From Candidatus Korarchaeum sp. (lineage in GTDB: Archaea; Korarchaeota; Korarchaeia; Korarchaeales; Korarchaeaceae): a stretch of DNA of 64,000 bases. The notes beneath the pieces are model-generated. The model was not told where the DNA came from. It saw only the letters and a list, made by a program, of their open reading frames with translations, and did no database searches. Below, one piece after another: positions 4,866-54,544 of this stretch (position 1 is its first letter; each line of letters starts with the position of its first letter). The stretch is taken from positions 620,001 through 684,000 of the forward strand of contig JAWAID010000001.1 in the NCBI GenBank assembly GCA_038888615.1. Direction: 5' to 3'. The translations under genes were made by a program, and so were the position numbers.

Positions 4866-6377
4866 CTAAGCCCTCCTCCTGAGGCTGAGCCCCTCGACGA
4901 AGATGTCCGGAAAGTGATGATTTCCGGTCAATTCTATATGAACGATCTCGGCCAGGAGCGAGTTCGCCAAGTCAAAAGCTTCCTTGCTGATGAGCATGGA
5001 CTTGGCACCAGCTAGGGCCGAGTTTCCAATTGAGATGAAGCTGCTCTCATTAACGGGAGGTATTAAACCGATGTCCAGAGCGTCCTCGAACCTCACGAAG
5101 GTACCGAATGTCCCGGCCATGACCACCCTCTCGGGCCTCACCCTGGCTTCCTCCACAAGGGTCCTCCAGGCAGCGTAGATCGAGGCTACTCCTTTCTGGA
5201 CCTCCCTAATATCCCTCTGAGTTATCTCAACCCTAGGATCCTCCAGCAAAGTCACCCTTCCATTAAGATCCCTCCTCATTCTCCCGTTTTCGTCTATTAG
5301 CCCGTTCCTTAACATCTCCGCCACGGCTGAGATCAAGCCTGAGCCCGATAGTCCCCAAGGTCTTCCAGAGAACCTGAGCCTCCACTCCCCTCCCTCGAGC
5401 CTAACCTCCCTAATAGCCTCCTCAACTCCCGCGATCCCTGGGGGCACGCTTGTCTCGAAAGCGGAGCCCGCTGGAGCTGTAGCCACGAGGATCGAGCTTC
5501 CAGTATCTAATATGACCTCAGCATTCGTTCCAAGATCTAGGAGGAGGTAGGGAGCCTCAATTCTAAGCAGTCTAGCCGTGATGATGTCCGCAAGCGCATC
5601 TGAGCCAGCGAACCCCCCTAGCGAGGGTGGTATTATCGCTAGGGCATCGGGAAGTCCCAGCTCGGGCGCGGGGCCTATCAACCATCCCTTGAGGGGTGGA
5701 TCGAACGGAGCTCTGGCTAAGCTCTCAACATCGAGTCCTAAGAGGAGGGACTGCATGACGGAGTTCCCAACTATCAGGATCGATGATAAGCACCTATCCT
5801 TGGCTATCTTGGATAGCAGCTCAGTTATGCCCTTAACAGCCAGTCTCCTGAGCTCCTCCCCCTCCCCTCTGAGCGATCTCTCCACTCTGGTGATGAGATC
5901 AGCCCCCCTGGAGACCTGAGGGTTAACAACGAATCCCTCAGCTAGAGTCTCACCGGTGTCCAGATCGACTATGGCGCCTGCTATCTTCGTGGTACCCAAG
6001 TCAACTGCGAATCCCACTTCAGAGGAGCACTCCCCTCTTCTGAAGTACTTTGGCGTGGGATCCGGTCTGAGCCTGGGCATCACCCCGGAAAACACAGCAA
6101 TTGGTCTGAGCTCAGGTATCTCTATGACGACGTCCCCCTCAATCCTGGTCCTGCAGGCCAATCTCATCCCCCTCTCCAAGACGCCAGATATCCTCTCCTC
6201 AGGAGAAGGCTCCGAGAGGGCCCCCTTCACCATCCTGATGATACAGTTCCCACAGAAGCCAGCTCCACCACAGGGCAACTCGAATCCCAGCTCCCTGCTC
6301 AGCAGCTCCCCTAAGATATCCCCTCTCCTCGCAGTGAGCTCCCTGTTGAGGGGGAGTACAAAGACCTTCGGAGCTAT
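4866..6377 (-). CDS. corrinoid-activating ATPase with [2Fe-2S] ferredoxin domain (RACo/RamA-like)
   Basis: The protein has an N-terminal plant-type ferredoxin domain whose cysteines read CGGAGFCGNC plus a later LACRTR, then a large ASKHA ATPase part starting GFAVDLGTTKIAG. This is the RACo/DUF4445 architecture: ATP-driven reduction of inactive Co(II) corrinoid to the Co(I) state. The first standard start is TTG at 6278, which would cut off the first half of the ferredoxin fold. The frame stays open upstream and encodes a proper ferredoxin N-terminus (VFVLPLNRELTARRGDIL) back to 6377. There an ATA codon follows GGAGGTG with a 5-nt gap. No ATG, GTG or TTG exists between the upstream stop and 6278 in this frame. 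A core MetE in the same window is a likely client pathway. Family call is firm; the start is inferred. Confidence 0.8.
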   Translation of the reverse strand: MAPKVFVLPLNRELTARRGDILGELLSRELGFELPCGGAGFCGNCIIRMVKGALSEPSPEERISGVLERGMRLACRTRIEGDVVIEIPELRPIAVFSGVMPRLRPDPTPKYFRRGECSSEVGFAVDLGTTKIAGAIVDLDTGETLAEGFVVNPQVSRGADLITRVERSLRGEGEELRRLAVKGITELLSKIAKDRCLSSILIVGNSVMQSLLLGLDVESLARAPFDPPLKGWLIGPAPELGLPDALAIIPPSLGGFAGSDALADIITARLLRIEAPYLLLDLGTNAEVILDTGSSILVATAPAGSAFETSVPPGIAGVEEAIREVRLEGGEWRLRFSGRPWGLSGSGLISAVAEMLRNGLIDENGRMRRDLNGRVTLLEDPRVEITQRDIREVQKGVASIYAAWRTLVEEARVRPERVVMAGTFGTFVRFEDALDIGLIPPVNESSFISIGNSALAGAKSMLISKEAFDLANSLLAEIVHIELTGNHHFPDIFVEGLSLRRRA

Positions 6378-6595
6378 GCGACCACCTCCTCACTATATCA
6401 GAGCTCCTGTTAAACGTTCCGCAACGGAGGTGCTACCATCATGGGCCGGTACTTACGAACGCGCACTCACAGGTGGTCCTCAACACCACCCCTCAGGTTA
6501 GGGGTAAAGATCTGATGCTGAAGGGTAATTTCCTTTGGAAAGCAAACAAAAGAAATCGTTTTATCGAATTACGCATCCAATACGTGGTGTCTCTC

Positions 6596-7246
6596 ATGGA
6601 GGATGTTAAGAGAGTCCTCTCGGTGTTGGAAGCCTATGCATCCATACTACCCGGGATAGCCTGGGCCGTGTCGTACCTCATGTACCTAGTGGCAGCGCTG
6701 CTCGGATCTATTTCAGCAAGTATGACAATAGAGCTGCTGGGAGTTCAGGGGGCTCCTTCCATGTCGATCATTTACGGAATCTCGCTCTCAATACTCTTCA
6801 TAATTGTATCTGCAGGTATCATCAGGCTCTGGAGAGTTTTTACGATACTGGAGGCCTTCAGAACCAAATCAGAGGCTAAGTACGGAATTCACCCCCTACT
6901 GTTGTGGCCCTTAGCTTTCATTGTAGCGGCAGTTGTGACACTGCTGGTGAGGGCATCCTTCCCACAGTCCGTCGCTCTCTTCGTCTCCCTTGGGACGGGG
7001 TTGGGGAACCTTCTCATGGCCTTAGTAACGCCTGGAAAGGAGAAGTACGGACCGCTTCTGGTAGGAGTATACCTCATTGGGACAATACCTTCCTACTATT
7101 ACCTTCCTGGGATCGCCGTATCTCTGCTGTTCTTCCACCTGTCCCTCCCTTATTTGGTGGTTTCACTCTGGTACATATTCGAGGGACAGAGGACCGCTAC
7201 GGTGATACTCCATGCAGCCAGAGGAGGAAATAAGGAGGGTAATTGA
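6596..7246 (+). CDS. multi-pass membrane protein of unknown function
   Basis: The 216-residue protein has about six hydrophobic segments, starting with GIAWAVSYLMYLVAALLGSI and ending with LVVSLWYIFEGQ before a short polar tail. The ATG at 6596 is chosen because a TTTTATCG element lies about 30 nt upstream; the open frame extends back to 6473 but that part looks non-coding. The winged-helix gene begins inside its last 35 nt in another frame, so expression is coupled. I recognise no family. Pairing with a DNA-binding protein suggests the membrane protein may sense something for the regulator, but this is a guess. Confidence 0.65.
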   Translation: MEDVKRVLSVLEAYASILPGIAWAVSYLMYLVAALLGSISASMTIELLGVQGAPSMSIIYGISLSILFIIVSAGIIRLWRVFTILEAFRTKSEAKYGIHPLLLWPLAFIVAAVVTLLVRASFPQSVALFVSLGTGLGNLLMALVTPGKEKYGPLLVGVYLIGTIPSYYYLPGIAVSLLFFHLSLPYLVVSLWYIFEGQRTATVILHAARGGNKEGN

Positions 7247-7523
7247 GTTCAATGAAGTATTAGGAGATGGAGTGAGGCTAGCGATAATGCTCTACCTTAG
7301 GATTAAGGGAAAGGCCAGGTTCAACGAGCTTGCCTCAGGCCTTGGGATATCCTCCGGGAGGCTGGCTCACCACCTCGGCGTGCTGGAGGGATCGGGTTAC
7401 ATCAGGGTGGAGAGATTGAGGGAGGACTTGAGGGGTAGGATCATAGAGATCACTCCTGAGGGAGTGAACGCCTTAAGGGAGTATTTGTCTTCAATGGTCT
7501 CAATGGCCAGGAAGCTTCTATAA
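7212..7523 (+). CDS. winged-helix DNA-binding transcriptional regulator
   Basis: The 103-residue protein is a single winged-helix domain. Residues about 10-75 read as helix, helix and recognition helix (GKARFNELASGLGISSGRLAHHLGVLEGSGYI is the core, positions about 32-63), followed by a wing with RVERLREDLRGRIIEITPEG. It resembles the MarR/ArsR-like HTH_27 group of archaeal regulators. There are no metal-binding cysteines. It overlaps the preceding membrane-protein gene by 35 nt. The downstream gap holds two near-perfect or perfect palindromes that could be its operators, which is untested. Confidence 0.8.
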   Translation: MQPEEEIRRVIEFNEVLGDGVRLAIMLYLRIKGKARFNELASGLGISSGRLAHHLGVLEGSGYIRVERLREDLRGRIIEITPEGVNALREYLSSMVSMARKLL

Positions 7524-7556
7524 TACCACCGCTTTTTTTGTTTGGAAGCCTCATTC

Positions 7557-7574
7557 CATACAGTTGACTGTATG
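7557..7574. promoter_or_regulatory. 18-bp inverted repeat, possible operator or terminator
   Basis: CATACAGT and ACTGTATG are exact inverted repeats separated by TG. The site lies 34 nt after the winged-helix gene. The spacing suits a dimeric DNA-binding protein. It could also fold in RNA as a terminator stem, but the loop would be too tight. Confidence 0.35.
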
Positions 7575-7671
7575 AGTTTCCCCGGAGGACGCGGGAGGGT
7601 CGAACGGACTCCTGACAAACTCTTTTTCGTGGAGGCAGGGTCTTGTCGAAGGTGGAGTCGCATTATATCAT

Positions 7672-7687
7672 TATAACTATAGTTATA
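7672..7687. promoter_or_regulatory. 16-bp perfect palindrome, candidate operator
   Basis: TATAACTATAGTTATA reads the same on both strands. It sits in an AT-rich stretch between the winged-helix gene and the PLD-like gene. Nearby GAGAGAT (about 7690-7696) and ATCTCTC (about 7729-7735) form another inverted pair around an AT-rich core. The remaining 7524-7813 gap holds no gene that I can see. Confidence 0.4.
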
Positions 7688-7813
7688 TCGGAGAGATTGG
7701 ATTATTTTAAATAAAAATAGATTAAGATATCTCTCAACACCTCCTGAGATGGACGATGTCAGACGCTTAGTGATCACGTCTTTTTATTAAGTCCGGACGC
7801 TACTGCTCACTGT

Positions 7814-8347
7814 ATGAGAACCTACGTGGGTAGGAACTTAGGTGCTTTTCTCGAACTGATGATATTCAGTGCAAGCAAGTCCATCTGGTTATGCAGTCCG
7901 AGGATATCTCCTAACTTCGCTCAGAGGCTGTTAGAACATGCTAGGAAGGGGATTGATGTTAAAGTGATCACTGAGACTCATAAGAACGAGGAGAGCTTGA
8001 ACATAATAAAGAGGGCTTTGAGATCAGATAGGAACTCTGAGGTCATCGGAGAGGGTTCCTCGTCCCCGCAACTAGATTACCTTATCTTGAAATCGAATAA
8101 GGAGAATCTTCAGATGGGTATTTACATCGTAGACGGTAAGCAAGCTGTTATAGGTTCCGCTAACCTCGTTGAGTCCGATCTTTACGGAGGCATCGAGTAC
8201 GTGATCATAATAGACGATCCGAGGGATGTTGAGAAGGTAATTGAGGATTTCATAGCTCTATGGAGGCTCTACACTGGGTTAAGCGATGATGTTGTCGAAT
8301 ATACGAGGTCCTTCTCCAAGGAAGCGTTCTACCAACGTCTCAGGTGA
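7814..8347 (+). CDS. phospholipase-D-like domain protein, HKD motif degenerate
   Basis: The 177-residue protein has the single-domain PLD fold pattern: ISPNFAQRLLEHARKGIDVKV early, and YIVDGKQAVIGSANLVES (about residues 110-127) where active members have HxKxxxxD...GSxN. The D, the GS and the N are present, but the H and K are replaced (QxG), so phosphodiesterase activity is unlikely. Members of this group act as nucleases, lipases or, when inactive, as binding modules. A TTTTTATTAAG element lies about 25 nt upstream of the ATG. Its target is unknown. Confidence 0.65.
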   Translation: MRTYVGRNLGAFLELMIFSASKSIWLCSPRISPNFAQRLLEHARKGIDVKVITETHKNEESLNIIKRALRSDRNSEVIGEGSSSPQLDYLILKSNKENLQMGIYIVDGKQAVIGSANLVESDLYGGIEYVIIIDDPRDVEKVIEDFIALWRLYTGLSDDVVEYTRSFSKEAFYQRLR

Positions 8348-8424: not shown

Positions 8425-9345
8425 TCACTCGAGGGACGAAGCGACATCGACTATGACCTTTAACTTCATCAAGGAGGTCTCATACGCATTTTCATACCCT
8501 AATAAACCCCTGAAACCGCAATCAGCGCTCACCAAATCTACTCTATCCCCTCCGAACCTCTCGATCAGGGCCTTAAGCAAGGAACTGACCTCATCGGGAG
8601 GTTCAACCTCGATGTCCCTAGCGCTCACGACACCCGGCGATATGATCTTACCGAACTCCTCGAGCTCTCCCCTCTCGAAGACCTCCAAGTTCTCCCTAGT
8701 ATCGTGGAACTCATGACTTAGGTATTTCACGGGGATCCTCACGAGGATCTCGGAGAGTAGAGGGGAGATCTTACCGCAAACATGTAGTCCAGTGTCATAT
8801 TTAAATTCGCTGAGGATCTCCTCATATATGGAGATGAGATCCCTCTCGGAGTAATTGAAGAGGATCCTCCTCCCCACGATCAACCCCAAGATGGGCTCGT
8901 CTATGAAGAGGTACCCTATTCCCTTATAGGACGCCCATTCCACTATCCCCTTCACGTAAGGGGTGAAGAAGGAGAGGACGACCTCCTTCTTAGCTAACAT
9001 GGATTTATGGAACCCCTCGCTCTCCCCTACCCTACTGGCCAACGTTAAAGGTCCAGCTACTGCGAATCTCAGGTTCCTGGGATCCGCTCCGGAGAGTTCT
9101 AAGAATTTCTCCACCTCCCCCGGATCAAATGAAGGATTATCAAGGTTTAGTGGGGCATATCTTCCCTCACTTACCCTCCTAAGTGTTCCATCCCTTACCA
9201 GCGGCTCTAAGTATATGTCAGTGAAGCTCCTCAACTGCGGGATGGGGGGGATCGATAGGCCCAGGCTCAGCGTATCTGAGTAGGCCCTGACCATGTTGGC
9301 GAGCGAATGCTCCAGTGGGTAGCTCCCCACATGCGAAGTCCTCAA
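8425..9345 (-). CDS. core MetE-like methionine synthase (methylcobalamin-dependent type)
   Basis: The 306-residue protein corresponds to the C-terminal catalytic barrel of cobalamin-independent methionine synthase only. It has HVGSYP at the N-terminus, YLFIDEPILG, the zinc-site segment LHVCGKI (about residue 188) and ADCGFRGL near the end with the second zinc-ligand cysteine. Archaeal core MetE proteins lack the folate-binding N-terminal half and take the methyl group from methylcobalamin or a corrinoid protein to homocysteine. The start is TTG at 9345, preceded by GGAGGGGTG. A corrinoid activator is encoded 2 kb away, which supports the corrinoid link. The corrinoid carrier itself is not in the window. 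Confidence 0.8.
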   Translation of the reverse strand: MRTSHVGSYPLEHSLANMVRAYSDTLSLGLSIPPIPQLRSFTDIYLEPLVRDGTLRRVSEGRYAPLNLDNPSFDPGEVEKFLELSGADPRNLRFAVAGPLTLASRVGESEGFHKSMLAKKEVVLSFFTPYVKGIVEWASYKGIGYLFIDEPILGLIVGRRILFNYSERDLISIYEEILSEFKYDTGLHVCGKISPLLSEILVRIPVKYLSHEFHDTRENLEVFERGELEEFGKIISPGVVSARDIEVEPPDEVSSLLKALIERFGGDRVDLVSADCGFRGLLGYENAYETSLMKLKVIVDVASSLE

Positions 9346-39313: not shown

Positions 39314-40569
39314 ATGCAAAACCACAACACTAAGCGAGTGCCAGTGAGCTACAGAGCTTACAACATCAAGCATAGATACGATGTCTCAGAGTTCCTAGAA
39401 GCGTACAGACTGCTGCTTCAGAGGGCTTTGGATGGGATATGGACCGAGATCATATGGAAGCATGATGGACGCAACCCAGTAATACCCAAAGGTGGGGAGT
39501 TCAAGAAACGGCTGAGGGATGAATTAGTGGAGGATTGGGGCTACTCGAAGCACTACGTTGATTCAGCTATAAGGGAGGCTTACAGCATCCTGAAATCCTG
39601 GAGGAGGAACTACTTGAAGGGGAGAGGAAAGGAGAAGCCCGTTATAAGGAGGAGGTTCGTTAGGGTAAAGGGAACGCTTTACAGCTATAAGGAGGGGAAA
39701 ATAAAGGTTAGCATAAGGCCCTATGAGGAGTACTTAATTTTCGATATCTCGAGGGCCTGGTTCTCGAGGAGGGTGAAGGGTGAAGAGCTGGGAGAGCTCA
39801 TACTGAGGGAGAGGTACCTAACGATAACCTTCAAGTTCAGAAGAAGAAAGGAGGAAGCGGTTGGGAAGATAGCATGGGACTACAATTTGAAAAGTTTGGA
39901 TGGCTTCAATCCGAAGCTTAGGTGGATCAGGATCGATTTAGGAAAGCTTTTCCACATCCACAGGGTCTATGAATTGAAGAGGGGGAGGCTGCAGTCTAAG
40001 GTATCCAAGAAGCCCTCTCTAAAAAGAGTTTTGGCCAAGTACTCAAGGAGGGAGAGGAACAGAGCTAAAGACTTCGTTCATAAGCTGCCACTTCCCTATC
40101 TAGGGAGTACAGAGGATATGTGCACGGTTTCGAGGATCTGAGGAAGGATAAGATGTTCAGAAGGGGAAAGAATGCGAGAAAGCATAATAGGGAAGTGGCT
40201 AAGAGCGATTGGAAAATTATACAGTCTCTTATGTCATATAAGTCGAGGGTTGTGTTCCTCAACCCCAAGGATACGAGTAGGAGGTGCTCCAGATGTGGGA
40301 GGATTGATAATAAGAAGAAGTTTAGTGCTCCGAAAAGCCTCAACCCTACGGGAAGCTCCGGATGTGGGATGGTAAATGCCCCGAAGGGAGCTTTCGTATG
40401 TGAATGCGGGTTGAGGATGGATAGGCAGCTTAACGCTGCCGTAAATTTGTACCTTCAGATGGAGGGACTTTCTCCGAGCCCAGAGCTCTTTGAGGAGCTT
40501 ACGGCAAAGCTCTTCAGAGCTGATGAGGGCCCGGAGTGGGTTCGCCCTGACGGGGGAGGAGGCCGATGA
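39314..40569 (+). pseudogene. tnpB: tnpB, RNA-guided nuclease gene interrupted by a frameshift
   Basis: Two overlapping frames together give a full TnpB. Frame one (39314-40141) contains the helical N-terminus and the RuvC-I aspartate in IAWDYNLKSLDG. It stays matched up to DFVHKL near 40085. The continuation is in the other frame: REYRGYVHGFEDLRKDKMF with the RuvC-II glutamate, VVFLNPK, a zinc ribbon, and the RuvC-III aspartate in LRMDRQLNAAVN. A single-base indel near 40085 splits them. The zinc-ribbon region also contains an extra segment: RRCSRCG is followed by a second, partly repeated SSGCGMVNAPKG before VCECG. I judge it non-functional unless frameshifting occurs. Confidence 0.8.
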
Positions 40570-53437: not shown

Positions 53438-54544
53438 TTAAGCTTCCCCTAATGAGGTGATCACCGCCCTGTTTGCCCTTTTCAGGTCGTTGATCATCTG
53501 GGGCATGACGGCCCAGGTGCTGTGAATCAGCACCTCCCCCCATTCCGAGCTCACCAAGCCCATCGATAGGGCCGATAGCAGCAGCATGTCGAAACGCTCC
53601 TCCCTAGAGAGCTTCACCTCATCGCTCAGCAGCTCTATCAACCTAGCGGCAACTATGGAGTCCTCTATCCTCTCAGCGATCCTCCCCTTACCCGAAGGAT
53701 CTGCTGGCATTCTAGCGATCCTAACGGCTTCTGATTCAAGCTCCTTCAGCAATTTAGATGCCTTGAACGATATCCTAGCCTCTATCTCCATTAAGGCGAT
53801 CCTCTCATCGTCCAGGGGGAGATCCTTAGATACGACTTCAGCTTCCCTGTCCAAGGCCTCCTGAAGCTCGTACCTTCCCGCCTCGAGGAGGTCGAGCGCC
53901 TCCACCTTCACCGAGTTGAAGAAGGCCCACCTGGAGAGGCTGATGGGCTCCTCCGGCGAGAGCTCCGCTGGATCATAGCTAGCGCTCTCGCTAGATAGCA
54001 TGGCATCCAGGACCTCCTCCATCTCGAAGAAAACCAAGGCCTCCCTTAGAGCTGATGCCGGATCGTCCGCTGCATGTATGACGTTAAGGGCCCTGTTTGC
54101 CCCCTTCATATCGTACCTTATGTTCCCCGGCTTACCCGCCTCGGGAGTGGTGGGTCCCACGACCTCCCTCAGCCTGGAGCTAGCATCACCCTCCTCGTGC
54201 AGGAGCAGGACAGCCACTACCGGGGCTTGGTTGAAGACCTTAGGCATTATCCACCAAGAATCCGAGTAACGCTGCTTCACGAACATGTAGAGCTCATCTA
54301 TCATGGCTGGATCCATCTCAGTCAGCTTGATCGCCCCTATCAGGAAGCCTGAGTCCTTGAGCCTCTCCATGACCTCGGGGACGAGCCCTCTAGCGAAGGT
54401 ATCCGGCTTGAGCAGTGCGAAGGTGAATGAATCCAGGGCTCTCAAGTGCTCATCATCGGCTTCTGAGAGGAAGATCTCCTTGAGGCGTGAGAAGACCTCC
54501 CTCTCCAGGGGATCCCTCCTATCGAAGTGGGAGAGGGCCCTCAT
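53438..54544 (-). CDS. nucleoside-diphosphate-kinase domain fused to a novel helical domain
   Basis: Residues about 40-175 match NDP kinase: FALLKPDTFARGLVPEVMERL, APVVAVLLLHEEGDASSRLREVVGPTTP, PGNIRYD, and NVIHAADDPASALREALVFF with the catalytic histidine. Residues about 1-39 and 176-368 are additional, mostly helical sequence that I do not recognise. Ordinary NDP kinases are about 150 residues. The ATG overlaps the stop of the oligosaccharyltransferase gene (ATGA), so the two proteins are made together. A role in nucleotide or phosphate handling for glycosylation is inference. Confidence 0.7.
   Translation of the reverse strand: MRALSHFDRRDPLEREVFSRLKEIFLSEADDEHLRALDSFTFALLKPDTFARGLVPEVMERLKDSGFLIGAIKLTEMDPAMIDELYMFVKQRYSDSWWIMPKVFNQAPVVAVLLLHEEGDASSRLREVVGPTTPEAGKPGNIRYDMKGANRALNVIHAADDPASALREALVFFEMEEVLDAMLSSESASYDPAELSPEEPISLSRWAFFNSVKVEALDLLEAGRYELQEALDREAEVVSKDLPLDDERIALMEIEARISFKASKLLKELESEAVRIARMPADPSGKGRIAERIEDSIVAARLIELLSDEVKLSREERFDMLLLSALSMGLVSSEWGEVLIHSTWAVMPQMINDLKRANRAVITSLGEA

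Follow-up and report, generated by a model that had tools for sequence, protein, structure and literature searches.

Where does translation of a gene begin when the domain at its N-terminus extends upstream of the first canonical start codon in its frame? The question is raised by a RACo-type corrinoid activator gene of Candidatus Korarchaeum sp., found on a 64,000-nt stretch of contig JAWAID010000001.1 (positions 620,001 to 684,000; assembly GCA_038888615.1), referred to here as the window. All coordinates are those of the window, whose genome is called G000. An initial annotation, made from the letters of the window, proposed an ATA at 6377 as the likely start of the activator, and the analysis described below supports this as the best reading. 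The features concerned are:

4866..6377, minus strand: ORF for a RACo-type corrinoid reductive activator, with 503 codons plus stop when counted from the ATA, identified by its open frame and domain matches
6276..6278, minus strand: TTG at codon 34, the first canonical start in the RACo frame, rejected as the start
6375..6377, minus strand: ATA, the proposed start codon, with a stop 5 codons upstream and a Shine-Dalgarno (SD) sequence 5 nt upstream, conserved in the relative G011
6383..6389, minus strand: SD sequence GGAGGTG, complementary to the 3′ end of the genome's own 16S rRNA, at the modal spacing and identical in G011
6390..6392, minus strand: in-frame stop TGA, which rules out a longer upstream start
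6407..6415, minus strand: TATA-like GTTTAACAG, a probable promoter element, identical and at the same spacing in G011

Start region and its signals

After the TGA at 6392-6390, the frame reads GGA GGT GGT CGC ATA GCT CCG AAG and stays open to the stop at 4866. As the initial annotation had it, there is no ATG, GTG, or TTG in the RACo frame between this TGA and the first Cys codon except TTG 6278, and GGAGGTG ends 5 nt before the ATA, the spacer being GTCGC. The 16S rRNA gene of the same genome ends GGATCACCTCC, which the GGAGGTG fits. Spacings of 5 nt are the commonest in this genome: they occur at 9 of the 16 examined SD-ATG sites that head an ORF of 80 aa or more and have fewer than 60 open codons upstream.

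The TATA-like element reported upstream of the SD is also present: GTTTAACAG is centered about 34.5 nt before the ATA. In a survey of 48 window ORFs, the TA-rich boxes of SD-led genes fell in the bins from -45 to -31, and those of genes without an SD mostly in the bin from -25 to -21; both SD-led and leaderless modes are to be expected, since 41.1% of genes in K. cryptofilum are reported to be leaderless (PMC3160421). A box at -34.5 would make for a short leader, and transcription could begin inside the SD, with part of it left out of the mRNA. The predicted RNA folds around the start are ordinary (z of 0.43, -0.04, and -0.14), and a special fold was rejected.

Domains and predicted fold

The 503-residue protein read from the ATA contains Fer2 (26.8 bits, against a cut-off of 21), Raco_middle (112 bits), and RACo_C_ter (165.5 bits) domains, all scoring over their Pfam cut-offs, and its best match among solved structures, by sequence as well as by fold, is RACo (PDB 3zyy). 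In an AlphaFold model the pLDDT is 81-87 over residues 1-20, and the N-terminus is predicted to form strands at residues 4-8 and 12-15 and a helix at 22-30. The initial annotation had read the frame upstream of TTG 6278 as the N-terminus of a [2Fe-2S] ferredoxin.

Conservation in the nearest relatives

The nearest relative, G011 (73% identical; sister to G000 with support 0.994), also has ATA at the start position: in an ungapped alignment the two genomes are identical at 15 of 15 bases of GGAGGTGGTCGCATA, and differ at 26 of the 51 bases upstream of it. A sequencing error in one genome is argued against by the ATA in G011, and a base error at 6375 was rejected for this reason. Outside the N-terminus (codons 34-503), the G000-G011 comparison gives a dS of 1.61 and a dN/dS of 0.12. 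For codons 2-33 the dN/dS is 0.36, vs. 1.14 and 1.61 in the other two frames (30 codons each), a result in favor of translation ahead of TTG 6278. The segment is short, however, and under weaker constraint: these 32 codons evolve faster than the rest of the gene (0.36 vs. 0.12), a point against the AUA start.

Other observations also count against it. G011 has an in-frame ATG 42 codons upstream and a GTG at codon 7, and the sister clade formed by G010 and G012 uses ATG, aligned with codon 3 in the former and codon 2 in the latter. A longer conserved N-terminus, corresponding to the G011 frame back to its upstream ATG, was considered and rejected, as G000 has a stop 5 codons before the ATA. At codon 7, Val is encoded by GTA in G000 and G013, and by GTG in their respective sisters G011 and G007; this synonymous drift in two pairs argues that the codon lies inside the coding sequence, and against the GTG as a start. 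In G010 and G012, a TATA-like box is found about 28 nt before the ATG, with no SD (distances counted by eye), and these two genes look leaderless. Homology begins at codon 4, and the canonical starts of G010 and G012 are at codons 3 and 2. Orthologues were expected to carry a standard start codon where 6377 aligns. These two genomes come close to this, with a displacement of one or two codons; G011 does not, and keeps the ATA.

Overlap with a core-MetE-like gene

Fifteen genomes of the same genus were compared with G000, and 13 genomes, G000 included, have a readable RACo 5′ end; those left out are G009, where the RACo start is off the contig, and G002 and G005, where no RACo was seen. Eleven of these genomes have, at the RACo site, an SD followed after 5 nt by ATA (two) or ATC (nine); the two without it are G010 and G012. 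The SD and its spacing recur, with ATC as the codon, in intact copies from eight more distant relatives and in a broken copy in G003. Because G011 has ATA and the distant relatives have ATC, the non-standard codon is a shared and old feature, and not an oddity of one genome.

A likely source for this arrangement is a neighboring gene:

8425..9345, minus strand: core-MetE-like methionine synthase gene (Meth_synt_2; NCBIfam methionine synthase models below cut-off)

In eight genomes (G015, G008, G001, G004, G006, G014, G013, and G007), RACo overlaps the end of a homologue of this gene, as does the broken copy in G003. The metE sequence for Glu-Val-Val-X-Ser, GAG GTG GTN NNA TCN, is read in the RACo frame as the SD, 5 nt, and then ATC. 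The base before TC is A in all nine RACo-adjacent metE copies, as part of an ACA, GCA, AGA, or CGA codon; in metE copies no longer adjacent to RACo it is G (G011, TCG TCC) or T (G000, GCT TCG). This suggests that the in-frame AUC may itself be under selection, although shared ancestry may also explain the constant A.

Six of the overlapping genomes have a GTG overlapping or just before the metE stop, a possible canonical start in the NTGA arrangement, which is reported to be the most frequent spacing motif in prokaryotic gene pairs (PMC12548453). In relatives where GTG overlaps the metE stop (GTGA), the RACo start may be either ATC or GTG. The first canonical start in G013 is a TTG lying 10 codons from the Cys; the only one in G007 is a GTG 29 codons ahead of the Cys.

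The metE-like gene directly precedes RACo in other species. In the window the two are separated by plus-strand genes at 6473-8347, encoding a membrane protein, a winged-helix regulator, and a PLD-like protein; the PLD-like gene is the one of these listed in G011. In G003 (L028, ~1744-1440, minus strand), frameshifts and stops disrupt the RACo copy that follows the metE-like gene; this pseudogene relic keeps GGAGGTG, 5 nt, and ATC.

As an addition to the account in the initial annotation, the segment from SD to start codon would then have been inherited from an overlap with the core-MetE-like gene. A broader scenario can be put forward more tentatively, as one somewhat less likely than not: AUH behind a strong SD would be the ancestral and selected start throughout the genus, born in the overlapping end of core-MetE, with the stub kept after the genes separated and AUC changed to AUA, making it a lasting archaeal case of translational braking.

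Frequency of non-canonical starts

Of 53 family loci from archaea and bacteria, 50 offer a canonical start at a distance of 25-70 codons ahead of the first Cys. The exceptions are the G000 gene, G013, and the contig-end case L118, whose frame runs off its locus. The 53 were drawn from 111 sources (the window, L001-L030, and L107-L186) as frames in which the Cys motif and D[LIVF]GTT occur together, duplicates being counted a single time. An alignment-based scan of genome contigs yielded 80 loci, with L107-L111 (G014, G015, G013, G007, and G009) as the only near relatives. Orthologues beginning at the TTG position, which would speak against the ATA, were looked for, and no orthologue was found that has the TTG site (2 codons before the Cys) as its only start.

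Within the genome, the pattern SD-N4-7-ATG is enriched (77 occurrences vs. 30 in a reversed-pattern control), and SD-N4-7-ATH hardly so (112 vs. 92). From the 112 ATH matches, 103 site/spacing combinations were put to a strict test: the site had to head an ORF no shorter than 80 aa, preceded by an in-frame stop and with no intervening canonical start. The RACo ATA was the only one to pass, vs. 8 of 30 ATG sites. Widespread AUH starts in this genome were rejected on these counts, which make the ATA start an exception and not a genome-wide habit.

Two other window ORFs drew attention by their translations. The one at 39314-40141 gives the impression of an IS-associated transposase/TnpB N-terminus, apparently cut short; that at 53438-54544 resembles nucleoside diphosphate kinase in its N-terminal part, with a long helical extension.

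Alternative explanations

Translation from TTG 6278, the choice a standard gene caller would make, would produce a truncated ferredoxin domain. This codon has in its favor that it is the first canonical start in the frame and that all four Fer2 cysteines (residues 36, 42, 45, and 75, counted from the ATA) lie downstream of it; the initial annotation was right that they would be retained, but its estimate that half of the fold would be removed is somewhat high, the loss being 33 of about 89 ferredoxin-domain residues. These would nevertheless include, in the model, both N-terminal strands and the helix. The TTG is preceded by no SD of at least 5 letters, the corresponding codon in G011 is CTT, and of the 52 other family loci only G013, with its TTG 10 codons before the Cys motif, and the cut L118 are limited to a start so near that motif. 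We regard a TTG start as very unlikely. The same can be said, with about as little doubt, of a decaying pseudogene or lost start, in which the ATA would be a mutated ATG or GTG and the N-terminus would not be made. The broken copy in G003 is a precedent for decay, and constraint on codons 2-33 is weaker than on the rest; against this stand 503 codons without an internal stop, the low dN/dS over codons 34-503, and the ATA held in common with G011 despite a dS of about 1.6 outside it, with SD and spacing also conserved.

Initiation might also occur at another non-canonical codon (GTC at codon 5 or GTA at codon 7), or the frame might be entered from a short upstream frame by frameshifting or reinitiation. 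The GTG at the codon-7 position in G011 and G007 is compatible with the one, and a GTG upstream in another frame in G000 with the other. However, the ATA is the only candidate with the SD at the 5-nt spacing that is modal in this genome, the codon-7 Val toggles between GTA and GTG in both sister pairs, and the upstream GTG is GCG in G011, so that initiation by these routes has scarcely any probability. The grounds for the ATA itself are matters of observation: an open frame, an SD, conservation, homology, and a lack of alternatives.

Predicted function

RACo/AcsV (PDB 3zyy and 4c1n), with the same architecture of Fer2, middle, and ASKHA C-terminal domains, is the best structural match to the activator. 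The activator nevertheless scores 220.9 bits with the AcsV model (NCBIfam NF040756), below the cut-off of 800, and its Pro302 aligns by phmmer to the Ser398 that is reported to be a cobalt ligand of RACo (PMC4934906). CdhD (PF03599, corrinoid iron-sulfur protein) is found in none of five genomes (G000, G011, G010, G015, and G013), the RACo-type activator notwithstanding. On these three grounds, the activator is predicted to work like RACo but not to be AcsV. Around residue 302 the genus family has APAGSAFE where RACo has CSAGPAFE, as if Ser and Pro had swapped places.

RamA-type methylamine corrinoid activase (TIGR04270) has the C-terminal ATPase-like region in common with the activator, which scores 121 bits with this model against a cut-off of 500. 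RamA has C-terminal 4Fe-4S clusters, and the activator has a Fer2 domain in their place.

B12-binding proteins occur in all five of the genomes just named, and one of them is a 215-236-codon frame in each. Given the core-MetE neighbor, the activator likely serves to reactivate a small methyltransferase-type corrinoid protein that would feed the synthesis of methionine or the transfer of methyl groups. For core methionine synthases, corrinoid proteins are the presumed methyl source (PMC7857596); the neighbor at 8425-9345 is core-MetE-like and is assigned here to none of the four families MesA-MesD, all its NCBIfam scores being below cut-off.

Probable initiation at AUA and its precedents

Taken together, RACo is very probably translated from the AUA at 6377-6375 by SD-driven Met-tRNAi initiation, giving the full ferredoxin domain. 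The anti-SD of the 30S subunit would pair with GGAGGUG, putting the AUA in the P site, where initiator Met-tRNA (anticodon CAU) would pair with A and U; the third-base mismatch would be tolerated at a reduced rate. The protein would begin Met-Ala-Pro-Lys-Val-Phe-Val-Leu-Pro, with a complete [2Fe-2S] ferredoxin domain, and the weak start probably keeps an activator that is needed catalytically scarce. The ATA has gone uncorrected to ATG in both G000 and G011 over a long divergence, which suggests that low RACo output is tolerated or useful. Use of the AUA in vivo, the promoter, Met at position 1, and the purpose of a weak start are what we infer from the sequence comparisons.

Comparable cases have been described in bacteria. 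Staphylococcus aureus infC, ccpN (AUA), and cvfC1 (AUU) are reported to have conserved starts with extended SDs; reporters for ccpN, cvfC1, and citZ gave about 10% of AUG expression, with ccpN reaching up to 30% in rich medium. These genes and E. coli pcnB (AUU) likewise combine a rare AUH and a strong SD with conservation, and are taken to limit expression (PMC13009471). The start predicted here differs in involving an archaeal gene and ribosome, and a redox activator instead of a regulator, and in that its SD-start segment appears to stem from an overlap with a second gene. Across 36 groups of bacterial and archaeal genomes, a survey reports AUG-to-AUU switches at 1 in 61,358, and AUA does not figure in its text (PMC5622118). 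Full-text searches of open PMC papers brought up no case of a conserved AUA start in an archaeon.

Implications

Beyond the start codon originally proposed, the comparison adds its conservation in G011, an AUC counterpart in other lineages, and an origin by gene overlap. A gene caller limited to ATG, GTG, and TTG would cut this protein short, and its ferredoxin domain would go unnoticed. Use of the AUA (AUC in relatives) would mean that archaeal ribosomes can initiate at AUH when a strong SD is present, and that the codon has persisted over a divergence long enough to saturate synonymous sites, though a single transition would restore AUG. The start signal would then derive from coding sequence of the gene upstream, and start-codon braking would become testable in archaea.
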